This document shows, piece by piece, positions 653-28,246 of a stretch of DNA of 34,315 bases. A program made the translations under genes and the position numbers. The notes beneath the pieces were generated by a model. That model was not told the origin of the DNA. It worked only from the letters and a program-made list of their open reading frames with translations, and did no database searches. The stretch lies in the NCBI GenBank assembly GCA_028710615.1, contig JAQTTT010000003.1:1-34315 (forward strand), written 5' to 3'. The stretch comes from Candidatus Nanoarchaeia archaeon (GTDB lineage: Archaea > Nanobdellota > Nanobdellia > Tiddalikarchaeales > Tiddalikarchaeaceae). Each line of letters starts with the position of its first letter. The first letter of the stretch is position 1.

Positions 653-1267
653 GTGAGCACCAAAAAAGCAATGCTTGAATCATTAAAAAACGGGAATTTA
701 ATAAAAAATTCAAATATTTTAAAAGCGTTTAATAAGATTAAAAGAGAGGATTTTTTGCCCGATTATTTGAAGGATTTGGCTTATGCTGATGCTCCTTTGC
801 CCATAAGCAAAACAGAAAGCATGAATCAAATCTCCACAACCCTTTTTTTTATTGATGCCTTGAATCTTAATTCAGGGCATACTGTTCTTGAGGTTGGGGC
901 TGGAAGCGGTTATTCCACAGCGATTTTGTCAGAGATTGTGGGAAAAACCGGGAATGTTGTAAGCTTTGAGCTTGACAAGGAACTGCATGAAAAAGCTAAA
1001 AAGAATTTGAAAAAATATTCAAACGTTACATTGGTTTTGGGCAATGGATTAAAAGGGTTTCCCGACAAAGCGCCGTATGACAGGGCAATCTTGTTTGGAG
1101 CTCTTGAAAAAAATCCTGAAGCAATCATGAATCAATTAAAAGTCGGCGGAGTATTGGTTTATCCCAAAGGCTCAATACTTCAGTCCCTTGTCAGGATTAA
1201 AAAGCTCCAGAAAGGATTGAAATCAGAATCTTTGGGAGAATACAGGCTTTCAAAGCTTATCAATTGA
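653..1267 (+). CDS. pcm: Protein-L-isoaspartate O-methyltransferase family protein
   Basis: SAM-dependent methyltransferase that repairs isoaspartyl residues in damaged proteins (family knowledge). The 204-residue product has the usual length. It has the N-terminal helical cap with REDFLPDYL (31-39), a divergent substrate loop PISKTESMNQIST (50-62), SAM motif I VLEVGAGSGYST (78-89), the acidic residue of motif II in VVSFELD, and the C-terminal MNQLKVGGVLVYPKG typical of the family. The start is GTG at 653, 31 nt after a TATA-like box. A T10 tract follows the stop, so it is probably monocistronic. The loop between 50 and 62 is less like the canonical family sequence, so substrate specificity is slightly less certain than the fold. 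Confidence 0.88.
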   Translation: MSTKKAMLESLKNGNLIKNSNILKAFNKIKREDFLPDYLKDLAYADAPLPISKTESMNQISTTLFFIDALNLNSGHTVLEVGAGSGYSTAILSEIVGKTGNVVSFELDKELHEKAKKNLKKYSNVTLVLGNGLKGFPDKAPYDRAILFGALEKNPEAIMNQLKVGGVLVYPKGSILQSLVRIKKLQKGLKSESLGEYRLSKLIN

Positions 1268-1272
1268 ATTGA

Positions 1273-1282
1273 TTTTTTTTTT
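1273..1282 (+). terminator. Oligo-T tract terminator
   Basis: T10 begins 6 nt after the stop of the methyltransferase gene and precedes the promoter of the Orc1/Cdc6 operon. Archaeal RNA polymerase commonly terminates at U-tracts without a hairpin. Confidence 0.5.
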
Positions 1283-1295
1283 GATTAAAGGAAAG

Positions 1296-1303
1296 TATTT
1301 AAA
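1296..1303 (+). promoter_or_regulatory. TATA box of the orc1/cdc6 operon
   Basis: TATTTAAA centred about 27 nt before the ATG at 1327; this fits a leaderless transcript beginning at or next to the start codon. Confidence 0.6.
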
Positions 1304-1326
1304 CTTTTAAAACTTCCTTTAATATC

Positions 1327-2391
1327 ATGTCTTTATTTAATGATTTATTGTCAAGCGAACAGACTTTATTCATTGATGAAAGCGTTTTGGATTTTGATTA
1401 CATTCCTGACTGCATTAAAAACAGGGATTTTGAAATGAATAAGATTGCTGACAGCATTAAGCCCTTGTTTTTTGACAAAAGGCCTGCAAATGTTTTTATC
1501 ACTGGAAAGCCGGGCATTGGAAAGACTTTGACAGTTAGGTATATTTTGCAGGATTTAAGCGAGAACAGGAATGAGGTGATTCCATGCTATATAAACAATT
1601 GGAAGTGCTCAACGTATCACAGCGTTTTTGTTGAATTAAGCAAGTTTTTTGGGGTTCCTTATCCAAGAAAAGGAGTAAGCACCGATGAGATAATAAGGAA
1701 TATTATTAAAAAAATTGAAGGAAAGAAAGGGGTTGTCATTGTTTTTGATGAGATTGACAAGGCAAAAGACACTGATTTTATTTATCCTTTGGTTGAAGGG
1801 CTTGGAAGAAAAATAGGGATAATTTTGATTTCAAATTATTCTGATTTTTTGAAAAGAATGGATTCAAGGCTGATTTCAAGGCTTAACATTGAAAATCTTG
1901 ATTTCAAGGAATATGATTATTCCCAAGTTTCGGATATTTTAAAGGAAAGGGTTAAATACGCTTTTTTTCCTGATGTTTTTGAAAGCGCTGCATTAAAATT
2001 AGTTGTTGACCATTGCTTTGAAAAAAGGGATTTAAGAATGGGGATATCCCTGCTTTTAAAATCAGGAAGGGCTGCAGAGAATGATGCAAGCAGGAAAATA
2101 AAAGAAGAGCATGTTTTGTCAGCAATTAAAACCCTTAAAAATTCTGCCAAGACCGACATGATTAAAGAATTGCAAGAGCATGAAAAAGCAATAATTAATT
2201 TATTGCAAAACAATAACGGATTAATAACAGGGGAATTATATGAATTGTTCATAAAATCAAATAAAGGAGTGAGCCTCAGAACTTTCAGGAAATACTTAAA
2301 CAGGCTGGAAACCCTTGAATTCATCACCACAGAAGAAACCGGGCAGGGTTTCAGGGGAAAGAGCAGGAAAATATTTTTGAGGAAAAATTAA
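1327..2391 (+). CDS. cdc6: Orc1/Cdc6 replication initiator
   Basis: AAA+ ATPase that binds origins and loads the MCM helicase in archaea. The 354-residue protein shows Walker A GKPGIGKT (60-67), Walker B VVIVFDEID (136-144), a sensor 1 strand ILISN (166-170), the box VII arginines in DSRLISRL (179-186), and a C-terminal region rich in helix-turn-helix character (about 280-354, including RTFRKYLNRLETL) as expected for the winged helix. It is the first gene of a coupled operon: its TAA shares an A with the ATG of the next gene. No origin recognition repeats were seen in the short upstream spacer. Operon partnership with membrane and glycosylation genes is unexpected from function alone. Confidence 0.93.
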   Translation: MSLFNDLLSSEQTLFIDESVLDFDYIPDCIKNRDFEMNKIADSIKPLFFDKRPANVFITGKPGIGKTLTVRYILQDLSENRNEVIPCYINNWKCSTYHSVFVELSKFFGVPYPRKGVSTDEIIRNIIKKIEGKKGVVIVFDEIDKAKDTDFIYPLVEGLGRKIGIILISNYSDFLKRMDSRLISRLNIENLDFKEYDYSQVSDILKERVKYAFFPDVFESAALKLVVDHCFEKRDLRMGISLLLKSGRAAENDASRKIKEEHVLSAIKTLKNSAKTDMIKELQEHEKAIINLLQNNNGLITGELYELFIKSNKGVSLRTFRKYLNRLETLEFITTEETGQGFRGKSRKIFLRKN

Positions 2392-3212
2392 TGGTTTTAG
2401 AAAGCTTAATAACTCCGCGTGAAGTCAGAAAAAACAGCTGGTACTTATTTTTTCTTGGAATCATTTTTTCAAGCTCAGGAATAATTCTTTCAATCTTTGT
2501 ATTTCCGGGAAACGCGGGAATATTCTCTGTTTTTTTGACAACTCTTGCGGCTGCGCCGTTATTCATATTGCTTCTTCAGGAAGAGGAATTATTGTCAATA
2601 AGATTGATTGAAAAAAAACAGCCGATATTCAAGAACAACATTGACATAATAAGCGCTTTCTTTTTTTTGTTTTTAGGATTCACGATTTCATGCATTCTAT
2701 GGTTTTGCTTTTTGCCTGAAGGAACATTTAATTTAGCATTTAATGAGCAATTGAATGAGATATCTTCAATTCAGTCAATAGCAACAGGAAACATTGCGTC
2801 TCCAGGATTATTTGAAACAGTATTAAAAAATAATTTAAGAGTCTTGTTTTTCTGCATGCTTTTTTCATTGATTTACGGGGCAGGAGCCGTATTAATACTT
2901 GCGTGGAATGCAAGCGTTTTAGGCACAGCTGTTGGATTGTTTATTCGGGAAAAAATGGCTTCTGATTCAAGCATGGTTGCAGTGTTTTTGTCAAACCTCC
3001 CTTTCGGGCTTGGGCAATACATGTTTCACGGAGCATTTGAATTAACTGCTTATTTTATAGGAAGCCTTATTGGAGGGATTTTAAGCGCGTCAATTGTGAG
3101 AAAAAGCTTCACTAACAGGAACTTTTTTAAATTATTTAAGAACATAATATTTTTATTGCTTATAAGCATAGCATTAATATTCATAGCAGCAATAATTGAA
3201 GTGAATCTGTGA
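2391..3212 (+). CDS. SpoIIM/DUF95-family membrane protein
   Basis: Integral membrane protein of 273 residues resembling stage II sporulation protein M (PF01944). In archaea, which do not sporulate, its role is unknown. About six hydrophobic segments are apparent (near 19-40, 47-64, 85-107, 148-180, 212-236 and 248-268). The family-like stretch is in the C-terminal half: NNLRVLFFCMLFSLIYGAGA, then WNASVLGTAVG, then LPFGLGQYMFHGAFELTAYF with its conserved His-Gly-x-Phe-Glu. The start overlaps the upstream stop (TAATG) and the stop overlaps the downstream ATG (TGATG), so translation of three genes is probably coupled. Confidence 0.8.
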   Translation: MVLESLITPREVRKNSWYLFFLGIIFSSSGIILSIFVFPGNAGIFSVFLTTLAAAPLFILLLQEEELLSIRLIEKKQPIFKNNIDIISAFFFLFLGFTISCILWFCFLPEGTFNLAFNEQLNEISSIQSIATGNIASPGLFETVLKNNLRVLFFCMLFSLIYGAGAVLILAWNASVLGTAVGLFIREKMASDSSMVAVFLSNLPFGLGQYMFHGAFELTAYFIGSLIGGILSASIVRKSFTNRNFFKLFKNIIFLLLISIALIFIAAIIEVNL

Positions 3213-7883: not shown

Positions 7884-8573
7884 ATGAAGCCAGCTGAATT
7901 GTCTCTTGTAATCCCTCTTTTTAATGAGGAAGAAAATGTTGTTTCTCTTTTGAATGTTTTGACCTCTGCTTTGAAAAAAGAAGGCATTAGTTATGAAGTG
8001 TTGGCAGTTGATAATGGCTCCATGGATAACACTGGGGATTTAATTGATAAATTTTCTAAAAAATGCAGGAATGTCATAAAAATAAAGGTAAAAGAGAATA
8101 AAGGGTATGGCTTTGGAGTTTTGTCCGGATTAAAAAAAGCCAAAGGAAAATACATTGGATATCTTTGGGGGGATAATCAGATTTCTCCAAAAACAACGAT
8201 TCAGGTTTTTAAAAAATTAAAAAAAGAGAATCTGGATCTATGCAAAATAACAAGGATTGAAAGGACAGAGTCATTGTTAAGGATAATCCAATCCATGATA
8301 TATAATTTACTGGTTAAATTATTGTTTGGTGTTGATTCAAAGGACATGAATGGCTGCCCTAAAATATTCAAAAAAGAGGCGTATGAGAAACTGAATCCTG
8401 AATCAAAAGACTGGTTTTTGGATGCTGAAATAATGATAAAATTGAAAAAAAATAATTTAAAATTCGGAGAAATATCAGTTGTTTCAAAAGACAGGGAAGG
8501 TGGAAAATCAAGCGTCAGCTTATTAACGGGGTTTGAGTTCTTAAAGAATATATTTAAATATAGGTTTATTTAA
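7884..8573 (+). CDS. GT2 glycosyltransferase, dolichyl-phosphate sugar synthase-like
   Basis: A compact GT-A domain of 229 residues without TM segments, of the DPM1/polyprenyl-phosphate glycosyltransferase type. Visible: LVIPLFNEEENV (8-19), the nucleotide-binding AVDNGSMDNTGD (41-52), ENKGYGFGVLSGLKKAKG (71-88) and WGDNQISP (95-102), which is the acidic metal-binding site with Asp97. It lacks the usual DADLQ sequence, having GDNQ in its place. It opens an operon with rfbF, rfbG and an SDR reductase (gaps of 9 and 4 nt, then a 4-nt overlap), so it probably handles a lipid or acceptor step in the same deoxysugar pathway. Whether it makes a lipid-phosphate sugar or transfers directly is undecided. 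Confidence 0.84.
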   Translation: MKPAELSLVIPLFNEEENVVSLLNVLTSALKKEGISYEVLAVDNGSMDNTGDLIDKFSKKCRNVIKIKVKENKGYGFGVLSGLKKAKGKYIGYLWGDNQISPKTTIQVFKKLKKENLDLCKITRIERTESLLRIIQSMIYNLLVKLLFGVDSKDMNGCPKIFKKEAYEKLNPESKDWFLDAEIMIKLKKNNLKFGEISVVSKDREGGKSSVSLLTGFEFLKNIFKYRFI

Positions 8574-8582
8574 TTAAATAAT

Positions 8583-9368
8583 ATGGATAATGTTAAAGTA
8601 GTTATTTTTGCCGGAGGAGCGGGAACCAGGCTAAGGGAAGAAACTGAGTATCGGCCTAAACCAATGGTAACTATTGGCGGAATGCCAATATTATTGCACA
8701 TTATGAAAATTTATTCTCATTATGGTTTTAATGATTTTGTCATTGCATTGGGGTATAAGGGGGATATGATAAAAAAATATTTTTTGGATTATCTTGAATT
8801 GAATAATGATATTGAAGTTAATTTAAAAACAAAAGAAGTTAGGTTTTTGACGGATTTAAAAGAAAATTTGAAGGTGACTTTGGTTGATACGGGCTTGGAT
8901 ACCATGACTGGTGGAAGGCTGAAAAAGCTTCAAAAATATGTTGGGGACAGCACGTTCATGGTTACTTATGGGGATGGGGTTGCGAATATTAATCTGAGAA
9001 AATTATATGATTATCATAAAACTCATGGAAAAATTGCAACAATTACAGGGGTTAGGCCTTCTTCAAGGTTTGGAGAATTAAACATTGAAAAAAACATTGT
9101 CATGGATTTCAGGGAAAAGCCCCAGATTTCAGGAAGCTATATTAACGGAGGCTTCTTTGTTTTTGAGCCCGAATTTTTCAATTATTTAAATGATGATGAG
9201 TCATTGATACTTGAAAGGGAGCCTTTGGAAAAAGTGGCAGAAGATAAAAATTTAATGATATTCAAGCATGACGGATTTTGGAAATGCATGGACACTTATA
9301 AGGATTTTTTGGATTTAAACAGAATAATGTCAGAATCTGCGCCATGGATAAAGGATTTGGAGGATTAA
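8583..9368 (+). CDS. rfbF: Glucose-1-phosphate cytidylyltransferase
   Basis: Makes CDP-glucose from CTP and glucose 1-phosphate, the entry step to CDP-6-deoxy- and 3,6-dideoxyhexoses. The 261 residues match the family length (about 257). Seen: the nucleotidyltransferase signature FAGGAGTRL (9-17) with the pyrophosphorylase lysine in YRPKPMVTIGG (23-33), a YGDGV metal-binding Asp motif, then the family-typical ITGVRPSSRFGELNI, INGGFFVFEPEFF and FWKCMDTYKD. These distinguish it from RmlA and GalU. It sits 4 nt before rfbG, the order found in bacterial O-antigen clusters, which supports the pathway assignment. Confidence 0.95.
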   Translation: MDNVKVVIFAGGAGTRLREETEYRPKPMVTIGGMPILLHIMKIYSHYGFNDFVIALGYKGDMIKKYFLDYLELNNDIEVNLKTKEVRFLTDLKENLKVTLVDTGLDTMTGGRLKKLQKYVGDSTFMVTYGDGVANINLRKLYDYHKTHGKIATITGVRPSSRFGELNIEKNIVMDFREKPQISGSYINGGFFVFEPEFFNYLNDDESLILEREPLEKVAEDKNLMIFKHDGFWKCMDTYKDFLDLNRIMSESAPWIKDLED

Positions 9369-10446: not shown

Positions 10447-11336
10447 AAAAAATATTGATTTGCGGAATTGGAGGGCAATTAGGGTTATCATTGAAGAATA
10501 TTTTTTCAAAAGACAATAAATACCAAATTCATGGAATTGATTTAAATCCAGATGGTTCATCAAACATGCATTCTTGCGATATAGCCAATAAAAAAGATTT
10601 GTCGAATATTTTTAAAAAAATAAGCCCTGATATTGTGATAAATGCGGCTGCATTGGTTAATGCTGAAATTTGCGAAGAAAAAAAGGATTTGACATACAGC
10701 ATCAATTATTTGGGTAATAAAAACATTCTTGAGCTTTCAAAAAAATATTCAAGCGATTTTGTTTTCATATCATCTTATTATGTTTTTGATGGAACAAAAA
10801 AAGAATATTATGAAACCAGCACTCCAACGCCAATAAATTATTATGGAATAATGAAATTATTGGCAGAGCAGGATTCATTAAGCTATGAAAAAACATTGGT
10901 AATACGGCCTGGAAAAATATTCAGCCTTGGATATGATTTGCGCAATTTTATTGCAAGAACGCAGCAATCCCTTGCAAGAAATGAAAAAATAAAGGCAATA
11001 AATGACCAATTTAACAACCCAATTCATGCGGATTTCTTGTCAGATTCAATAAAGCAATTGATAGAAAAAGGAGAAAAAGGCATTTATAATGTTGCAGGAA
11101 AAGATTATGTAAGCAATTTTGAATTTGCAAAGCTATTTGCAAAACATTTTAATTTTAATGAATCTTTGATTGATTCCATAAAAACAGATGAAACAAATCA
11201 AATTGCCCAAAGGCCGAAAAATGTTGAATTAAAGCTTGATAAGCTGGAAAAAGCAGGCATTAAAGCGCATTCGCTTGAAAAAATGTTTGAACACATGGAA
11301 TCAATTTTTAGCAAAAACCAGCTCTTTAAGGTATGA
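10443..11336 (+). CDS. RmlD-like SDR, probable CDP-4-keto-deoxyhexose reductase
   Basis: Short-chain reductase of 297 residues of the RmlD/NAD-epimerase type. It shows ICGIGGQLG (6-14) as the nucleotide-binding turn, NAAALVN (67-73), SSYYVFDG (110-117) and the catalytic Tyr134-x3-Lys138 in YYGIMK. RmlD enzymes reduce a 4-keto group of dTDP sugars, but this gene overlaps rfbG by 4 nt and no rmlABC genes are present, so reduction of a CDP-4-keto sugar is the better inference: either CDP-4-keto-6-deoxyglucose directly or the 3,6-dideoxy product (a paratose/abequose synthase role). Its last 36 bp are also coding on the opposite strand, for the end of a radical SAM gene. Confidence 0.82.
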   Translation: MKKILICGIGGQLGLSLKNIFSKDNKYQIHGIDLNPDGSSNMHSCDIANKKDLSNIFKKISPDIVINAAALVNAEICEEKKDLTYSINYLGNKNILELSKKYSSDFVFISSYYVFDGTKKEYYETSTPTPINYYGIMKLLAEQDSLSYEKTLVIRPGKIFSLGYDLRNFIARTQQSLARNEKIKAINDQFNNPIHADFLSDSIKQLIEKGEKGIYNVAGKDYVSNFEFAKLFAKHFNFNESLIDSIKTDETNQIAQRPKNVELKLDKLEKAGIKAHSLEKMFEHMESIFSKNQLFKV

Positions 11337-12725
11337 TTTTGCCATGCTTAAAAAATATTTCACTTCATCAAAGGATTTTATTTTCTTTATTTGATTCCAA
11401 ACATATTTTGGAGATTTATAATAATTTTTTAAAACACTGCTTTGCAATTTTATCATTTCATCAGAAGTCATGTAATTCAATTTTTCATATCTTTTCAGGT
11501 TTCCAAACAAGCTGAATTGAGACCAGTCAGGATTTTTTGGCAATAATTTGCTTTTAATCAAAATGTCATAAATTTCTGTTCCAGGAAAAGGGCAAAGAAT
11601 GCTAAACGCAAGAAAATCAGGCATTAATTCATGCATTAATTTTATGGATTTTTCAACATCTTCAATTTTTTCATCAGGATGAGAGCCAATCATAAAAGTG
11701 CATTCAACAAAGCGAATTCCCGCTTTTTTTGCATTTTTCACTGCATTCTTCACATCTTTAATCCTGATATTCTTTTTTATTTTTTTGAGTATTTTTGGGC
11801 TTCCGCTTTCAACGCCAAAAGATATTTTTTTGCATCCTGATTCCGCCATCATTTTCAATAATTTTAAATTAACAGTATTTACCCTGGAGTTGCAATTCCA
11901 AGACAATTTTTTTTCTTTGAAAAATTCGCATAATTTTATCACCAAAGGCCTGTTTATCGTAAAAGTGTCATCTTCTATTGAAATATGATTTATATTAAAT
12001 TTTTCAATGTTTTCCTCGATTTCTTTTTTTATATTTTCAAAACTTCTGAACCGCAACGTGCCTTTGTAATTAACATGCCCAGCGCAAAATATGCATTTAT
12101 TTGGGCAACCCCTGCTGGTTAATATTTCAATTATTTTATTATTTTTCCTGGAAAAACCTCGTGTAACATGGTGCTTTGAATATAATTCCATGTCAATTAA
12201 ATCCCTGTTTGGAAAAGGTATTGAATCCAAATCCTTAATCAATTCCCTTTTTTTATTTATTATAATGCCATTTTTTTCCCTAAAAGCAATGCCAGGGATA
12301 TTATGCATTTTTTTCCCTTTTTTTATAAAATCAACAAGCTCAACAACAGTTTCCTCCCCTTCCCCATGAACCAAAAAATCCAAATTTTTTATTTCTTTCA
12401 TGGTTTCAAAAGGCAAAGCAGAAGCATGGCAGCCCCCAAGAACAGTTATTATTTTTTTATTTTTATCTTTTATAATGTCAATTGTTTCCCCTGCATTATA
12501 AATTGATGAAGTCATAGAAGTCAAACCCGCAATTTGAGGCTTGAATTTTTTAATAATTTTTAGCAATTCTTTTTTAGGCATGACATTCAAATCAATCATC
12601 TTAACTTCATTGTTCGCCTTAATCAGTGAAGAAGCAATGTATCCAAGATTTATTGGATATTGCAATGACAGAAATTCCTTGTTAACAGCTTTTGTTGCTT
12701 CTGGCTGTATTAGCAAAATTTTCAT
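11301..12725 (-). CDS. B12-binding domain radical SAM protein
   Basis: 474 residues. The N-terminal Rossmann-like cobalamin-binding domain (about 1-135) includes LGGCHASALPFE (96-107) and VHGEGEETVVEL (119-130); no DxHxxG motif is seen, so cobalamin would bind base-off without a His ligand, as in many class B enzymes. The radical SAM core follows, with Cys207, Cys211 and Cys214 in SRGCPNKCIFC, which bind the 4Fe-4S cluster. SIEDDTFTINRP and FGVESGSPKILKKI are typical of this superfamily (P-methylase/BchE-like annotations). Likely chemistry is methylation of an unactivated carbon or a ring rearrangement; the substrate is unknown. The gene overlaps the SDR gene by 36 bp tail to tail and is divergent from rfbH. 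Confidence 0.87.
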   Translation of the reverse strand: MKILLIQPEATKAVNKEFLSLQYPINLGYIASSLIKANNEVKMIDLNVMPKKELLKIIKKFKPQIAGLTSMTSSIYNAGETIDIIKDKNKKIITVLGGCHASALPFETMKEIKNLDFLVHGEGEETVVELVDFIKKGKKMHNIPGIAFREKNGIIINKKRELIKDLDSIPFPNRDLIDMELYSKHHVTRGFSRKNNKIIEILTSRGCPNKCIFCAGHVNYKGTLRFRSFENIKKEIEENIEKFNINHISIEDDTFTINRPLVIKLCEFFKEKKLSWNCNSRVNTVNLKLLKMMAESGCKKISFGVESGSPKILKKIKKNIRIKDVKNAVKNAKKAGIRFVECTFMIGSHPDEKIEDVEKSIKLMHELMPDFLAFSILCPFPGTEIYDILIKSKLLPKNPDWSQFSLFGNLKRYEKLNYMTSDEMIKLQSSVLKNYYKSPKYVWNQIKKIKSFDEVKYFLSMAKSYLKELVFAKN

Positions 12726-12742
12726 AATTAAGCTAATAAAGT

Positions 12743-12753
12743 AAAATTTTTAA
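12743..12753. promoter_or_regulatory. Shared A/T box between radical SAM gene and rfbH
   Basis: AAAATTTTTAA is the only TATA-like element in the 54-nt spacer. It lies about 30 nt before the ATG at 12780 and about 23 nt before the minus-strand ATG at 12725. Confidence 0.45.
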
Positions 12754-12779
12754 CTCTTTTTATTGTATATTATTCAGTA

Positions 12780-14072
12780 ATGAACAACAAAAACATAATT
12801 GATTTTATTGAAAAAAACGCTTTTTTTCAAAGCAATGAATTTATTCCGGGAAAAACGCAAATAAAGATTTCAGGCAAAATTTATGACCAAAATGAATTGC
12901 TTTTAGGGATACAATCAATTATTAATGGCTGGTGGACTGAAGGGGAATTCAATAAAATGTTTATATCCAAATTTTCTTCTTTTTTGGGAATCAAGCACGT
13001 TTTGCCCGTTAATTCAGGTTCTTCAGCAAATCTTCTTGCTTTTGCAGCATTAACATCTCCCCTGCTAAAAGAAAAAAGGATAAAAAAAGGGGATGAAGTC
13101 ATAACTGTTGCGTCATGCTTTCCCACAACAGTGAATCCAATATTATTATATGGATGCATTCCAGTATTTGTGGATGTCAATTTAGAGACTTATAATGCTG
13201 ATTGCGATTTAATTGAAAATGCGATAACGCAAAAAACAAAAGCAATATTCTTAGCCCACACATTGGGAAATCCGATTAATCTGGACAAAATTCAAAAAAT
13301 TTGCAAAAAATATGATTTATGGCTGATTGAAGATTGCTGCGATGCTTTAGGCTCTGAATATGGAGGCAAAAAAGTTGGAACTTTTGGAGACATTGGCACA
13401 TTCAGCTTTTATCCTGCGCACCACATTACTGCTGGAGAAGGAGGAGCAGCAGCTACAAATAATGATTTGTTAAATAAGATAATGAAATCAATCAGGGATT
13501 GGGGAAGGGATTGTTTTTGCGAAACAGGGCATGACAATACCTGCCAAAGCAGATTTTGCCAAAAGCACGGAGAATTGCCGCAAGGATATGACCATAAATA
13601 TGTTTATTCCAATATGGGTTTTAATTTAAAATGGACGGATTTTCAGGCAAGCATTGCATGCGCACAAATGGATAAACTGGATTTTTTTATCAAAAAAAGA
13701 AAAGAAAATTTTAATTTACTGCATAAAGGATTAAAAAAATTTGAAAAGCATTTAATTCTTCCAAAGGAAGAGAATAATTCAAATCCCTCATGGTTTGGCT
13801 TCCTGCTCACTGTAAAACCTCCAATCAATAGGAATGATTTAATAGAGCATTTGGAAAATAGCAAAATTTCAACAAGGCTGTTATTTGCAGGCAATGTGAC
13901 AAAGCAGCCGTATTTCAAGGATTTAAAATATAGAATATGCGGAAATTTAAAAAACACGGACATAATCATGAATTCAAGCTTTTGGATAGGGGTATATCCA
14001 GGAATAACACCTGAAATGATAGATTATATTTTGATGAAATTTGAGGATTTTTTTAAAAAATCAGAGAAATAA
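12780..14072 (+). CDS. rfbH: CDP-4-keto-6-deoxyglucose 3-dehydratase (E1, PMP and [2Fe-2S] dependent)
   Basis: Removes the 3-hydroxyl from CDP-4-keto-6-deoxyglucose, the committing step to 3,6-dideoxyhexoses. The 430-residue protein has the aminotransferase (DegT) fold: NSGSSANLLA (78-87), the pyridine-binding Asp185 in IEDCCDALGSEY, and FSFYPAHHITAGEGG (208-222), where His214 takes the place of the PLP lysine as in the E1 dehydratases. The iron-sulfur ligands fit the published E1 spacing C-X57-C-X1-C-X7-C exactly: Cys187, Cys245, Cys247, Cys255. GELPQGYDHKYVYSNMGFNL also fits the family. It needs a flavin/iron-sulfur reductase (E3), which is not encoded here. It is monocistronic, separate from rfbFG. 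Confidence 0.95.
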   Translation: MNNKNIIDFIEKNAFFQSNEFIPGKTQIKISGKIYDQNELLLGIQSIINGWWTEGEFNKMFISKFSSFLGIKHVLPVNSGSSANLLAFAALTSPLLKEKRIKKGDEVITVASCFPTTVNPILLYGCIPVFVDVNLETYNADCDLIENAITQKTKAIFLAHTLGNPINLDKIQKICKKYDLWLIEDCCDALGSEYGGKKVGTFGDIGTFSFYPAHHITAGEGGAAATNNDLLNKIMKSIRDWGRDCFCETGHDNTCQSRFCQKHGELPQGYDHKYVYSNMGFNLKWTDFQASIACAQMDKLDFFIKKRKENFNLLHKGLKKFEKHLILPKEENNSNPSWFGFLLTVKPPINRNDLIEHLENSKISTRLLFAGNVTKQPYFKDLKYRICGNLKNTDIIMNSSFWIGVYPGITPEMIDYILMKFEDFFKKSEK

Positions 14073-20746: not shown

Positions 20747-21520
20747 TTAACCCCTCCTAATAGCTGTTATCAATCCTGTTTGCTCGTTTTTTTTCATTTT
20801 TTTTATCTCAAAATCATTGTTTTTTAAAAATTTTTTTAATTCATTAAAGCTTTTTCCATTGTCGATATCATGGTATTCCATTGTTATTGTCTTTATTTTT
20901 TTTATATTGTCTTTTTTAGATTTAAATAATATTCCATATTCTGAGCCTTCGCAATCCAATTTAAGCAATTCTATTTTTTTTATTTTATTTTCTTTTATAA
21001 AATCATCAAAGGATATTGTTTTTATTTTTTCTCTTTTTTTTGATTTTATTATTAAGGAATGCCCTCCGCTATTATTGTCATCAATATTTATATAGCACTC
21101 CCCGGAATAATTGAAAAGGGCCTTATTTATTGCAACAACATTTTTATTGTTATTTAATTCAATGTTTTCTTTCAATAATTTAAAGTTGTCTTTCATGGGT
21201 TCAAATGAATAAACCGTTGAATTCGGATATTTCTTTGAAATATAATTTGAAAATACGCCAATTTGGGCCCCAACATCCAATATTATGCTTTTTTTTTTGC
21301 CAATTTTATCATAATACTCTTTATCTATTATTATTTTATTTATTATTTCCAAATCAGTTTTATTTCTCACCTTTAAAACAAGGCCGTTTTTTAGCCTGAT
21401 TATTTTATTTTTAATGAAAGATTTTCTTATAAGAAAATAATCTATGAAACTTTCATAATTATTGATTATTCTGCTTATTTTTTCAGCGAATTTCATATTT
21501 TTAAATATTGATATTAACAT
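20747..21520 (-). CDS. FkbM-family SAM-dependent methyltransferase
   Basis: 257 residues with the FkbM pattern: SAM motif I ILDVGAQIGVFS (80-91), acidic motif in YSFEPMKDN (104-112), and LLKLDCEGSEYGIL (185-198), the conserved (D/H)xEGxE-like strand. FkbM enzymes methylate hydroxyl groups on sugars or polyketides. It is the third gene of the minus-strand operon starting at 23324. ATG 21520 is taken as start because it lies 20 nt after the previous stop; an in-frame ATG at 21496 is an alternative that loses nothing conserved. Lys, Ile and Asn make up 112 of 257 residues by hand count, unusually high even here. Confidence 0.88.
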   Translation of the reverse strand: MLISIFKNMKFAEKISRIINNYESFIDYFLIRKSFIKNKIIRLKNGLVLKVRNKTDLEIINKIIIDKEYYDKIGKKKSIILDVGAQIGVFSNYISKKYPNSTVYSFEPMKDNFKLLKENIELNNNKNVVAINKALFNYSGECYINIDDNNSGGHSLIIKSKKREKIKTISFDDFIKENKIKKIELLKLDCEGSEYGILFKSKKDNIKKIKTITMEYHDIDNGKSFNELKKFLKNNDFEIKKMKKNEQTGLITAIRRG

Positions 21521-21540: not shown

Positions 21541-22632
21541 TTATTTCATTAAATATTCAAACACTTCATTTAAATGCTCCTTTTTTATTTTATGGGGCAG
21601 TGTTATTTCTTCATTTGAAAGGGGTTTTATTTTATTGTTTTTAATGCTTTGAATTTTTTCTGACAATTCTTTGATTGTTGAAAATACAAACCTGCGAGGC
21701 AATATTTCGCTGATTCCATTGCTAACATGGGATACCATTGGTTTTCCTGAAGACATGCATTCCAAAGGGACTATTCCGAAATCTTCATCATAAGAAGTGT
21801 AAACTGCCAAAAAAGATTTATCATACCATTTTTGGATTTCATTGTCGTCAAGCTCTCCCAAGAATTCAACGGGCAAATTGTTTTCTTTAACAATTTTTTT
21901 TAAATATTCATAATATTTTTGGTTGGATATTTTTCCTATTATTGCTGTTTTAGGCTTATTTTTAATTAATTTTAAAGCTTCCAATAAAATAGCCTGGTTT
22001 TTTTCAGGGCTGATTCTTGAAACGCTAATCAAATATTCGCCTGTTTTATTTGATTTTTTCATTAATTTTCCTGCAGGAGGGTAAAGAACAGAATGCTCAT
22101 TAAATTCGTATATTAAATTAAATTTAGTCCACATTTTATGGGAGTTAACCCAGATTCTATCAAAATATTTAATGCTTTCTTTGTCTAATTTTTCCCCTTT
22201 TTTTAAAATTGCCTTAAAAATCCATTTTTTATCATTCAAAGTCTTGAAAAGCTTTGGATACAGGTGCTTTTCCGGGTGGCTGCAATACCAAAAAATTTTT
22301 GTTTTGTATTTTTTTTTGGCTTTCATTGCTAAAATATTTGTAAAAGGCCTGTAGCAAATAAGGGCATCGTATTTTTCCAGAAATGAAACATCCAAATCAA
22401 TAATGTGCCTTGACAACAATGTGCTTCTTATTTTTTTTTTATTTTCATAATTTTTTGCGTATTCTTTTATTTTAAATTTTTTAAAATCATTTGGAAAAAC
22501 ATTTTTATTGTAATATCCGCACAATATTTCAACATCAAGCCCCTTTTTTTTTAAAAAATTCGCATGGGTTGCAATAAGCCTTTCTGTTCCCGCATTCATT
22601 TCTATTTCAACATTCAATAATCCTATTTTCAT
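21541..22632 (-). CDS. GT4 glycosyltransferase, ALG2-like
   Basis: Retaining GT-B glycosyltransferase of 363 residues. The opening VEIEMNAGTERLI (8-20), where the usual glycine-rich loop is NAGTER, and IFWYCSHPEKHLYPK (113-127) resemble the ALG2/ALG11-type mannosyltransferases of lipid-linked oligosaccharide synthesis. The donor half has LISVSRISPEKNQ (201-213) and the EX7E pair Glu283 and Glu291 in DEDFGIVPLECMSSGKPMV. It lies 5 nt after the HddC-like gene, so it may transfer the sugar activated by that enzyme, plausibly a GDP-heptose; this is inference. A T10 homopolymer lies within the coding region at 22431-22440. Confidence 0.88.
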   Translation of the reverse strand: MKIGLLNVEIEMNAGTERLIATHANFLKKKGLDVEILCGYYNKNVFPNDFKKFKIKEYAKNYENKKKIRSTLLSRHIIDLDVSFLEKYDALICYRPFTNILAMKAKKKYKTKIFWYCSHPEKHLYPKLFKTLNDKKWIFKAILKKGEKLDKESIKYFDRIWVNSHKMWTKFNLIYEFNEHSVLYPPAGKLMKKSNKTGEYLISVSRISPEKNQAILLEALKLIKNKPKTAIIGKISNQKYYEYLKKIVKENNLPVEFLGELDDNEIQKWYDKSFLAVYTSYDEDFGIVPLECMSSGKPMVSHVSNGISEILPRRFVFSTIKELSEKIQSIKNNKIKPLSNEEITLPHKIKKEHLNEVFEYLMK

Positions 22633-22637
22633 CTTAT

Positions 22638-23324
22638 TTATTTTATCATCTCATTAAATTTTTTATAGTTGTCGGGAGTTCCTATATCAATATATTTTTC
22701 ATTATATTTCACTGCTTTTAAGCCTTTTTTTATTATTATTGGAAATATCTCTTTTTCCAGGCTGACTTTTTTGTTTTCAGGTATTAAATCCAAGACATTT
22801 TTTTTAAAAATATAAACTCCCGCGTTCATGTATTTGTCGTTTTTTGAAGGATTTTTGGGCCTTTCTTTTAATTCAACAACATCATTGTCTTTGTTAAGTT
22901 TTACAATTGTTACTTCAGAGGGATTGATTGTTTTTGTTATCACCATTAAATGTTTTTTATTTTTATTGAATTCTTTTATTATTTTTTCATAATCCAATTC
23001 GTGGTAGGTGTCTCCATTTAATAGGATAAAATCTTCCCTGATTAAATTTTGAGCATTTTTTAGCGCACCAGCAGTTCCCAATGGCTCTTTTTCAATTGAA
23101 TATTCTATTTTAATTCCATATTCTTTTCCGTCCTCGAAATATTCCATTATTTTTTCATGCTTATGTCCAACGCAAATTATTATTCTGTTAAAATGATTTT
23201 TTAATTGGGAAATGAGATAGTGCAAAAACGGTTTTTTATTAAATTCAGCCATTGACTTTGGCAGATTATTAATTATTCCGCTTAATCGGGTTCCCAGCCC
23301 TCCGGCCAAAATCACTGCTTCCAT
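22638..23324 (-). CDS. hddC: Sugar-1-phosphate nucleotidyltransferase, HddC-like (heptose 1-phosphate guanylyltransferase)
   Basis: 228-residue nucleotidyltransferase: ILAGGLGTRL (5-14) and the catalytic-type lysine in NLPKSMAEFNKKPFL (20-34), then ILLNGDTYHELD with the metal-binding Asp, MNAGVYIFKK and YIDIGTPDNYKKFNEM at the end. The short length and the wording PKSMAEFNKKPFLHYLI resemble HddC, which makes GDP-D-glycero-D-manno-heptose, more than the ManC or GalU families. The divergent gene is an HddA-like kinase, which supports this. It could still be a mannose-1-phosphate guanylyltransferase-like enzyme. It heads a four-gene operon with gaps of 5, 20 and 4 nt. Confidence 0.78.
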   Translation of the reverse strand: MEAVILAGGLGTRLSGIINNLPKSMAEFNKKPFLHYLISQLKNHFNRIIICVGHKHEKIMEYFEDGKEYGIKIEYSIEKEPLGTAGALKNAQNLIREDFILLNGDTYHELDYEKIIKEFNKNKKHLMVITKTINPSEVTIVKLNKDNDVVELKERPKNPSKNDKYMNAGVYIFKKNVLDLIPENKKVSLEKEIFPIIIKKGLKAVKYNEKYIDIGTPDNYKKFNEMIK

Positions 23325-23344
23325 TTTTAATTAATATTAGTTAA

Positions 23345-23356
23345 ATATTTAAATAT
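23345..23356. promoter_or_regulatory. Single perfectly palindromic TATA box for two divergent genes
   Basis: ATATTTAAATAT is a perfect 12-bp palindrome. Its centre is 26.5 nt from the ATG at 23324 (minus) and 25.5 nt from the ATG at 23376 (plus), the exact leaderless spacing for both genes. No second TATA-like element of comparable quality is present in the 51-nt spacer. Confidence 0.7.
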
Positions 23357-23375
23357 CTTAACTTTTATTATATCC

Positions 23376-24380
23376 ATGATAATTTGCAGGGCTCCGGTAA
23401 GAATTGATTTTGGGGGCGGAGGCACAGATATTGAGCCATATTCTTCTGAGCATACAGGATTTGTTTTAAACTCTGCCATTAATAGGTTTGTTAAAACAAT
23501 TGTGGCAAAAAGAGACGATAAAATAATAAAAATAATATCCAGCGATTTTAATTCAATAATAGAAAAGGAATCAATAAATGATTTGACTTATGATTCAACA
23601 TTGGATTTAATAAAAGGATTGATTAAAAGGATGAACCCTTTAAAAGGAATTGATTTATTCACAAGAAGCGATATTCCAACAAAATCCGGATTGGGGGCGA
23701 GCGCATCGCTTAGCACCAGCGTAATAGGCGCTTTAAATGAGTTGGAAAAAAAGAATTTAACAGAATGTGAAATAGCGGAATTGGGCTATGGCGTGGAGCA
23801 TGATGATTTAAAAAATGAAGGCGGAAGGCAAGACCAATATGTAAGCGTTTTTGGAGGATTTAATCAAATAGAATTTTTAGGGAATTCGAATGTAAAAGTC
23901 AGCAAGCTCACTTTAAAATCATCATTTTTAGAGCATTTAAACAAGAATTTGATTTTAATTTATACTGGAATTCCCCATATTAGCGGAAATATAATTTCAA
24001 AACAAGTTGATTCTTACAATAAAAAGGAGCAAATAGCGGTTGAATCATTGCATAAGGTAAAAGAAATAGCAATGAATATGAAAGATTCTTTGCTAAAGGA
24101 AGATTATGAATCTTTTGCCAAAGGATTGGAAAAAGATTGGGAATATAAGACAAAATTGAATCCCTTAATAACAACTGACAGGATGAGGGCGCTTAATAAT
24201 ATTGCATTAAAAAATGGGGCTATTGGCGGAAGAGTTTGCGGGGCAGGAGGGGGAGGATGCATGATTTGGCTTTGCAATGAAGGAAAAAAAGACGGGGTTG
24301 TTTCTGCATTAAAAAAAGAAAATGCCCATGAAATAAAATATGAATTTAACAGCAAGGGATACGAAGTCGTGGATTTTTAA
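23376..24380 (+). CDS. hddA: GHMP kinase, HddA-like (D-glycero-D-manno-heptose-7-phosphate kinase)
   Basis: Phosphorylates a heptose 7-phosphate at C1 to feed the guanylyltransferase (family knowledge). The 334-residue protein starts with CRAPVRIDFGGGGTDIEPY (4-22), the signature of HddA and related L-fucose/heptose kinases, then the GHMP ATP loop PTKSGLGASASLSTSVIGAL (101-120), GGRQDQY (149-155) and the C-terminal GRVCGAGGGGCMIWL (285-299). Isomerase GmhA and phosphatase GmhB, needed to complete the pathway, are not in the window. It is read from the same symmetric promoter as the HddC-like gene. Fucose/other sugar kinase activity is the main alternative. Confidence 0.85.
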   Translation: MIICRAPVRIDFGGGGTDIEPYSSEHTGFVLNSAINRFVKTIVAKRDDKIIKIISSDFNSIIEKESINDLTYDSTLDLIKGLIKRMNPLKGIDLFTRSDIPTKSGLGASASLSTSVIGALNELEKKNLTECEIAELGYGVEHDDLKNEGGRQDQYVSVFGGFNQIEFLGNSNVKVSKLTLKSSFLEHLNKNLILIYTGIPHISGNIISKQVDSYNKKEQIAVESLHKVKEIAMNMKDSLLKEDYESFAKGLEKDWEYKTKLNPLITTDRMRALNNIALKNGAIGGRVCGAGGGGCMIWLCNEGKKDGVVSALKKENAHEIKYEFNSKGYEVVDF

Positions 24381-24428: not shown

Positions 24429-25544
24429 TTGAAAAATGTTAGAAAATTGCTTAAAATGCTAAGCACTAAAAATTTTAATTACCTGATTAATATTATTAAG
24501 CACAGAATTGCTGGAATAAATTATAAAAAAATTTCTGAAACAGGCATTGTTAATCCAATATATGTTCAAATAATGCCAACTTTAAAATGCAATCTTAAGT
24601 GCAAAATGTGCCTTCAAAAAGAAATTAAATGCAATAAAAACGAGCTTGATTATGGTAAAATGGTTGTTGTTTTAAAAAACCTTGAAAAAATGGGAATAAA
24701 AAGGGTTGATTTTATTGGGGGAGAAATATTTTTGATGAAAGACATATATAAAATCCTTGATTTGTTTAAAAAAAGGGGATTTATTCTGTCTTTGGGCACA
24801 AATGGAACCTTGTTAAAAGAAAAAGACATGATTTTGCTGTCAAAATATAATAACATCATAAGCATAGGATTTTCTTTGGATGGCCTTGAAAAAACCCATG
24901 ATAACATCCGAGGAGTTAAAGGTTCTTTTAAAAAAACAGTAAATTCAATTGTTGAAATTAAAAAAAGGGGCATTGATGTTGGCATTACCTGTGTTTTGCA
25001 GAAAGACAATTTTGATGAAATACCCAAATTAATGCTTTTTCTTAAAAAAAGAGGCATTAATAATCTTACCATTTTATTTGAAATTTATTCAACGTCAAAT
25101 GATGTGATGATTACAAAAAACATAATTAAAAAAATGATTGGGCATTCTCCTCAAATATTTTTAACCCCTAAAAATGAAATGGATTACTCTCCTGATGAAG
25201 TTGAAAGGGCTGTTAAAAAAATAAAAAAATACGCAAAAAAAATCAAGTTTAATGCAATTTTTAAAAATGAGGATTATATTCCAGAAATTTTCAATAACAC
25301 GGTTAGAAAAAAACATAAAGTTACTTGTGACATTCTTGCAACAGGAAACACTCAAATTGATTGGAATGGCGATTTAAATGTTTGTCCTTTTATAGGCTTA
25401 AATGTTTTGGGGAATCTTTCTAAAAAAGAGATAAAAAAAGACATTTTTAACAGCGATATTTATAAAAAAATAAGGAAAAAGATGCTTAATTGCAATTTAT
25501 TGCCCATATGCGATCATTGTTGCCAATTGAATGTGATTAAATGA
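24429..25544 (+). CDS. Radical SAM/SPASM-domain protein
   Basis: 371 residues. The radical SAM cluster ligands are Cys54, Cys58 and Cys61 in LKCNLKCKMCLQKE; FIGGEIFL (95-102) is the GGE motif and GFSLDGLEKTHDNIRG (147-162) is typical of the SPASM family. A C-terminal set of cysteines (300, 319, 355, 361, 364, 365) provides ligands for auxiliary Fe-S cluster(s). Such enzymes modify peptides or sugars, or act on carbohydrates in glycan clusters; no precursor peptide gene was seen nearby, so a glycan or nucleotide-sugar substrate is the more likely inference. TTG 24429 is chosen as start because the next in-frame ATG (24456) would shorten it with no better promoter spacing. Confidence 0.85.
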   Translation: MKNVRKLLKMLSTKNFNYLINIIKHRIAGINYKKISETGIVNPIYVQIMPTLKCNLKCKMCLQKEIKCNKNELDYGKMVVVLKNLEKMGIKRVDFIGGEIFLMKDIYKILDLFKKRGFILSLGTNGTLLKEKDMILLSKYNNIISIGFSLDGLEKTHDNIRGVKGSFKKTVNSIVEIKKRGIDVGITCVLQKDNFDEIPKLMLFLKKRGINNLTILFEIYSTSNDVMITKNIIKKMIGHSPQIFLTPKNEMDYSPDEVERAVKKIKKYAKKIKFNAIFKNEDYIPEIFNNTVRKKHKVTCDILATGNTQIDWNGDLNVCPFIGLNVLGNLSKKEIKKDIFNSDIYKKIRKKMLNCNLLPICDHCCQLNVIK

Positions 25545-27205: not shown

Positions 27206-28246
27206 ATGAAAACAGCGATTATTACAGGAATTACTGGCCAGGATGGCAGCTATTTGGCTGAATTGTTATTGTCAAAAGGGTACAGGGTTTATGGCATTCT
27301 TCGCAGGTCAAGCACTCCGCATACCCAAAGAATAAAGCATTTAATGGGCAATCCTGATTTTATATTGCGCCAAGGGGATGTGACAGATAAATCTTCAATT
27401 GAAAGGGTTATATTTGAAGCAAAGCCCGATGAGTTTTATAATCTTGCAGCCCAGTCTTTTGTTCCTGCTTCATGGACTAATCCTGAATTTACAGCAGAAG
27501 CAACAGGATTGGGTGTATTAAGGTGCCTAGAAGCTTTAAGGTATTATGAGGAATATTCCGGGAAAAAAGTAAGGTTTTATCAGGCAGGCTCAAGCGAGCA
27601 GTTTGGAAAAGTAAAGCAAATTCCTCAAAATGAAGAAACTCCATTTTATCCAAGAAGCCCTTATGGCGTGGCAAAATGCTTTGGTTATGAAATAACAAGG
27701 AATTACAGGGAAAGCTATGGAATGTTTGCTGTAACTGGATTATTGTTTAATCATGAGTCTCCAAGAAGGGGATTGGAATTTGTCACGAGAAAGATTACTT
27801 CAACCATTGCAAAAATAAAAAATGGGGAAGACATTGTTCTTGAGCTTGGAAACATATATTCTAAAAGGGATTGGGGTTTTGCCGGAGATTATGTTAAGGC
27901 AATGCACTTAATGCTTCAGCAAAAAGAGCCGAAAGATTATGTTATTGCAACAGGGGAGGAGCATACAATCAAAGAATTTGCGAGTCTTGTATGCGAATGT
28001 GCTGGAATAAAGATAAAATGGGTTGGCGAAGGAATGGATGAGAAAGCAATGGATGAAACAGGCAAAACAATAATGGCAATAAATAAGGAATATTATAGGC
28101 CTGCTGAAGTTGAAACTTTGCTGGGAGATTCAAGCAAAGCAAGGCAAGAGCTGGGATGGAAAATTGAAACAAGCTTTGCTGAATTGGTTGAAATGATGGC
28201 AGAAGAAGACATAAAAAGAGTAAAAAATAATGATTTGAATTATTAA
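27206..28246 (+). CDS. gmd: GDP-mannose 4,6-dehydratase family enzyme
   Basis: NADP-dependent SDR that forms the 4-keto-6-deoxy form of a GDP-sugar, normally GDP-mannose. The 346-residue protein shows TGITGQDGSYLAELL (7-21), the NADP-binding RRSSTPH, GSSEQFGKV (128-136) carrying the catalytic Ser-Glu, and Tyr153-x3-Lys157 in SPYGVAK. FNHESPRRGLEFVTRKI is a Gmd hallmark. Because HddA/HddC-like enzymes are encoded nearby, GDP-heptose is a credible alternative substrate, as for the GMD-like dehydratases of Campylobacter and Burkholderia that make GDP-6-deoxyheptose. Its Lys+Ile+Asn content is low for this window (62 of 346 by hand count). The partner reductase follows after 12 nt. Confidence 0.93.
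   Translation: MKTAIITGITGQDGSYLAELLLSKGYRVYGILRRSSTPHTQRIKHLMGNPDFILRQGDVTDKSSIERVIFEAKPDEFYNLAAQSFVPASWTNPEFTAEATGLGVLRCLEALRYYEEYSGKKVRFYQAGSSEQFGKVKQIPQNEETPFYPRSPYGVAKCFGYEITRNYRESYGMFAVTGLLFNHESPRRGLEFVTRKITSTIAKIKNGEDIVLELGNIYSKRDWGFAGDYVKAMHLMLQQKEPKDYVIATGEEHTIKEFASLVCECAGIKIKWVGEGMDEKAMDETGKTIMAINKEYYRPAEVETLLGDSSKARQELGWKIETSFAELVEMMAEEDIKRVKNNDLNY

Follow-up and report, generated by a model that had tools for sequence, protein, structure and literature searches.

Can a single promoter element serve two genes that point away from each other across only 51 bp? In the window analyzed here (the whole stretch of 34,315 nucleotides, positions 1-34315), a sugar-1-phosphate nucleotidyltransferase gene on the minus strand (22638-23324) and a GHMP sugar kinase gene on the plus strand (23376-24380) are separated by the spacer 23325-23375, which runs from one ATG to the other, and a 5′ leader is expected on neither mRNA. 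Both ATGs are firm, as each protein starts with the N-terminal residues conserved in its family (MEAVILAGGLGTRL and MIICRAPVRIDFGGGGTD). Judged by its sequence, this spacer is likely a bidirectional, leaderless archaeal core promoter in which one TATA box serves the kinase and the nucleotidyltransferase.

One TATA box, the same on both strands

Direct reading of the spacer confirmed the palindrome ATATTTAAATAT exactly where the earlier note had placed it, at 23345-23356 (core TTTAAA, 23348-23353), identical on both strands. Its center, 23350.5, lies 25.5 nt from the plus-strand ATG at 23376 and 26.5 nt from the minus-strand ATG ending at 23324. In a 414-kb sample of the window's own genome, with ORFs called by a simple longest-ORF script, A-rich bases are most frequent at -37 to -34 relative to the start codon, and TTTAWA begins most often at -31 to -28 (202 to 209 upstream regions), a spacing suggesting that transcripts of this genome are mostly leaderless or nearly so. 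With offsets of -28 (kinase ATG) and -29 (nucleotidyltransferase ATG), the TATA box of the spacer falls within this TTTAWA peak; given that peak, its position between the two ATGs is not due to chance. Genes for TBP and for two TFB-like proteins are also present in the genome, with PF00352 and PF00382 matches above cut-off.

We scored the site with a promoter model of 18 positions, a position weight matrix fitted by expectation maximization to 202 promoters of the same genome. The BRE-TATA site toward the kinase, TAGTTAAATATTTAAATA (23338-23355, plus strand), reaches 10.84 bits, the 71st percentile of the genome's promoters, and the site toward the nucleotidyltransferase, AGTTAAGATATTTAAATA (23346-23363, minus strand), reaches 9.39 bits, the 53rd percentile. 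The TATA half contributes 8.98 bits in both directions, in keeping with the proposal that a symmetric TATA cannot by itself set direction and leaves this to the flanking BRE bases. Both sets of flanking bases score weakly (1.85 bits for the kinase direction and 0.41 bits for the nucleotidyltransferase direction), such that one direction could be poor. The asymmetry of the BRE flanks, a check suggested at the outset, is thus slight, amounting to 1.4 bits in favor of the kinase, all from the BRE half. Since the TATA halves are equal and the BRE halves weak, the DNA offers little direction. Moreover, the next best sites in the spacer score 5.0 and 5.7 bits and are misplaced, leaving ATATTTAAATAT as the only TATA-like site correctly placed for either gene; the use of a single TATA for both directions is therefore borne out as far as the model scores can tell.

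The palindromy itself is a different matter. The exact 12-mer ATATTTAAATAT occurs twice in the window (0.04 expected) and three times in the 726-kb genome, two of these copies being those of the window. When this AT-rich 51-bp spacer is shuffled by mononucleotides, 2.2% of the shuffles yield a palindrome of at least 12 bp near its center, and a perfect palindrome of that length is present in the TATA zone of 6 of 202 genome promoters (3%), compared with 0.7% in a control zone, at divergent and nondivergent promoters alike. A second palindrome, TTAAATATTTAA (23341-23352), overlaps the first. Because the two remaining copies of ATATTTAAATAT are not accompanied by a divergent gene pair, palindromy alone has no predictive value. 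As a mark of divergent pairs it is also ruled out by its longest relative, the 14-bp palindrome TATATTTAAATATA (8549-8562, plus strand), which places TTTAAA at -30 of the ATG at 8583 and serves a same-strand NTP_transferase gene with no divergent partner. This palindromic TATA lies within the 3′ end of the gene 7884-8573, into which it would be predicted to send an antisense RNA.

Two enzymes that belong together

The nucleotidyltransferase (NTP_transferase, PF00483) opens a minus-strand run of glycosylation genes that continues with a glycosyltransferase (21541-22632, minus strand) and an FkbM methyltransferase (20747-21520, minus strand), and the GHMP kinase (PF00288/PF08544) has radical-SAM genes behind it, at 24429 and 25621. 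The surrounding window is a dense sugar-nucleotide and glycosylation cluster, with NTP_transferases at 8583, 22638, and 29106, GDP-mannose-dehydratase-type epimerases at 27206, 28259, and 31701, and glycosyltransferases, FkbM methyltransferases, and B12/radical-SAM proteins.

The kinase resembles HddA, and HddC is among the best NCBIfam matches of the nucleotidyltransferase, both below the equivalog cut-offs (243 versus 600 bits for HddA and 156 versus 300 bits for HddC). Because these scores fall far short and gmhA (TIGR00441) was not found in the genome, which at 88% completeness leaves some doubt on this point, assigning the pair to the HddA/HddC GDP-heptose pathway is unsafe. For the same reasons, the term "guanylyltransferase" used in the earlier note is uncertain.

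The partnership of the two enzymes stands on firmer ground. A similar nucleotidyltransferase lies within 3 kb of the kinase in 39 of 80 named kinase relatives, in tandem in 37 cases and divergently in 2, with gaps exceeding 200 bp. In one genome of the same class (L005:745-2517), the nucleotidyltransferase and the GHMP kinase are fused in a single 591-aa protein (P0001), which is the relative closest to both window genes within the class. The tandem order and the fusion in relatives argue that the two are genuine partners, which in turn makes a coupled, matched expression plausible. They also lead us to reject the pair as a conserved divergent arrangement, the nearest relatives being tandem or fused. 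Since relatives are mostly tandem and that of L005 is fused, the divergent shared-TATA arrangement is probably derived, a rearrangement standing in for the tandem or fused order rather than a dedicated switch. The kinase match is absent from the same-genus genome (G001) and from the same-family genomes; hence, these provide no orthologous spacer for comparison.

Compact divergent promoters across the class

When two divergent ATGs are about 50 to 58 bp apart, two TATA boxes at their native offsets must coincide. The centered placement of the TATA box follows from the gap length and the leaderless geometry, and a shared TATA at a 51-bp gap between leaderless genes is unexceptional. Nine genomes of the class yielded 192 divergent pairs with gaps of 30 to 130 bp, and in 9 of these pairs both scores are at least 6 and the TATAs overlap. 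One of these 9 pairs is a second pair in the window, with a 54-bp spacer (12726-12779; 10.5 and 9.0 bits) between a B12/radical-SAM gene (11301-12725, minus strand) and a DegT aminotransferase gene (12780-14072, plus strand). The symmetry that had been treated as special is thus not upheld as such, given the same-strand palindrome upstream of 8583 and the recurrence of shared TATAs.

On a wider scale, the pattern CAT-N23-TTTAAA-N22-ATG is present in 286 of 378 class genomes, versus 193 and 169 for controls in which the CAT is displaced (+10 or -10 bases). The corresponding Poisson rates per genome are 1.41 versus 0.71 and 0.59, and the shared-TATA layout is therefore about 2-fold enriched across the 378 class genomes. 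Several genomes of one family carry a recurrent, better conserved spacer between divergent CAT and ATG, GATAGTTTTTAAAAGTTG(C/T)TGTG and close variants (e.g., G070:C1:177306, G021:C15:56700, G182:C42:25462, and G353:C40:9762), which points to conservation of a shared-TATA pair within that one family.

Some of the genes sharing a TATA encode related functions. A CDP-archaeol synthase-like (CarS-like) gene and a CDP-alcohol phosphatidyltransferase gene, consecutive enzymes of lipid synthesis, share one TATA across 54 bp (L052:5377-6525). Fructose-bisphosphate aldolase and triose-phosphate isomerase do so across 57 bp in genomes of two genera (G002 and G003); in G004, the aldolase faces an aldehyde ferredoxin oxidoreductase-like (AFOR_N) gene instead, the gap being 57 bp here too and the TATA central (aldolase-containing loci L080:8835-10340, L105:16323-17822, and L255:2-1540). 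Further partner pairs are debranching-enzyme-like/glycogen-synthase-like (L204) and L21e/Rpb4 (L202), and unrelated pairs, such as FEN1/flippase and PolB/NFACT, were found as well. Compared with a set of 15 divergent pairs with wider gaps (80 to 118 bp), functional links were called by eye and unblinded in 5 of 10 shared-TATA pairs versus 0 of 6 wider-gap pairs, a difference that is not significant at this small sample size (Fisher P = 0.09). With doubtful cases included on both sides, the equally by-eye, unblinded counts are 6 of 11 versus 1 of 6 (P = 0.30, not significant). That shared-TATA pairs often join pathway partners is thus an exploratory observation, suggestive but not significant.

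A second compact layout appears at shorter gaps: 20 pairs have gaps of 34 to 39 bp versus 4 at 40 to 45 bp (binomial P = 0.0015, or 0.02 when the window's genome is left out). At the short gaps of 34 to 39 bp, the TATA of each gene falls within the promoter of the other, giving two interleaved TATAs. Such pairs, with gaps of 35 to 38 bp, occur in the window's genome on L040, L050, L065, L059, L038, L042, and L049. The L038 pair is a ThiI split into divergent genes (1034-1588, minus strand, and 1627-2424, plus strand; gap of 38 bp) with interleaved promoters, the PP-loop domain being encoded on one strand and the ferredoxin-like and THUMP domains on the other.

We tentatively raise the idea, which we hold to be less probable than its negation, that compact divergent promoters represent a standing, class-wide alternative to the operon, in which the shared-TATA (about 50 to 58 bp) and interleaved (34 to 39 bp) layouts would couple pathway partners, the partners being swappable while the 57-bp spacing is kept. 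Examples would, equally tentatively, include the kinase/nucleotidyltransferase, CDP-archaeol synthase/CDP-alcohol transferase, aldolase/triose-phosphate isomerase, and L21e/Rpb4 pairs and the split ThiI halves. If this pattern were true, small-genome archaea would use two-way promoters as "divergent operons," and the prediction of operons and coexpression in these organisms would change.

A working model and its relation to known promoters

We propose that TBP binds the single TATA box, whose two strands read the same, and that TFB may dock on either side of it, guided by the weak flanking BRE bases. RNA polymerase would then begin transcription at a distance of some 26 to 29 nt, on or beside the ATG of the kinase or of the nucleotidyltransferase; the use of both start sites and the absence of a leader are inferred. 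A likely consequence is that the output of the two pathway genes roughly covaries, with a small kinase bias. The support in hand consists of the site, its consensus position, the equal TATA scores, the lack of rival sites, and the TBP and TFB genes. The initial observation is confirmed, and in our best reading one TATA for two directions, the core of its interpretation, appears right, matched levels of the two enzymes being a plausible consequence.

A single TATA accommodates just one initiation complex at any time. From this structural knowledge, one could imagine a switch-like promoter yielding either kinase or nucleotidyltransferase, and the earlier note had indeed proposed mutually exclusive initiation. 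Per event, exclusion is physically, if trivially, true, and initiation one way would block the opposite direction only while a given complex persists. As a regulatory switch it finds no support: exclusivity would be maladaptive for enzymes that are normally co-operonic or fused, and the basal bidirectional promoters of E. coli fire too rarely for competition (PMC12825309). We therefore reject this explanation, to which we attach hardly any probability.

Somewhat less improbable, albeit still very unlikely, is that the TATA box and the imperfect inverted arms flanking it, GTTAA (23340-23344) and TTAAC (23358-23362), act mainly as the operator of a dimeric regulator that represses or switches both genes. 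The arms were read directly as GTTAA-N13-TTAAC and span the TATA box as a candidate regulator site, but they are off the TATA center by half a base pair in AT-rich sequence, are not seen at the other palindromes, and have no adjacent regulator gene; nor is an operator needed to explain the TATA symmetry. The most serious competitor, which we nevertheless regard as unlikely, is that one gene owns the TATA, the other being expressed mainly from elsewhere or barely at all, and that the second direction is a nonfunctional by-product of a symmetric archaeal TATA. Many second-direction transcripts of Pyrococcus furiosus are regarded as noise (PMC6640164), and the BRE is weaker on the nucleotidyltransferase side. 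However, in neither direction does the score fall below the median for promoters of this genome, and neither gene has an alternative well-placed site. A bidirectional promoter serving both genes remains the more likely explanation, and the spacer offers a clean natural test of how direction is set where an archaeal TATA is symmetric, the halves being identical and only the flanks differing.

Warman et al. (2021) reportedly described divergent transcription driven by promoter symmetry as widespread among bacteria and archaea. As in those systems, a symmetric promoter element would give two-way initiation here; unlike them, where the bacterial case uses a -10 element and start sites were mapped, the present case is known from sequence. 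The box A promoters of Nanoarchaeum equitans, an archaeon with a small genome, likewise have TTTAAA about 26 to 27 nt ahead of the start, although they drive RNA genes rather than protein genes and that paper does not describe a bidirectional case (PMC3491384). The closest parallel is found in P. furiosus, whose BRE-TATA-BRE promoters fire both ways, as seen also in vitro with start sites 49 bp apart (PMC6640164). In both organisms, a near-symmetric TTTAAA lies midway between opposite-strand starts about 50 bp apart, the starts being predicted in our case from an ATG-ATG distance of 51 bp. BRE support is weak here in comparison with BRE-TATA-BRE, and whereas the cases detailed in P. furiosus concern head-to-tail genes and antisense RNA (PMC6640164), the present spacer lies between two annotated genes with apparently leaderless mRNAs that encode pathway partners. 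The proposed bidirectional promoter is thus of a known archaeal kind, a well-formed example of a layout common in relatives rather than a new switch.
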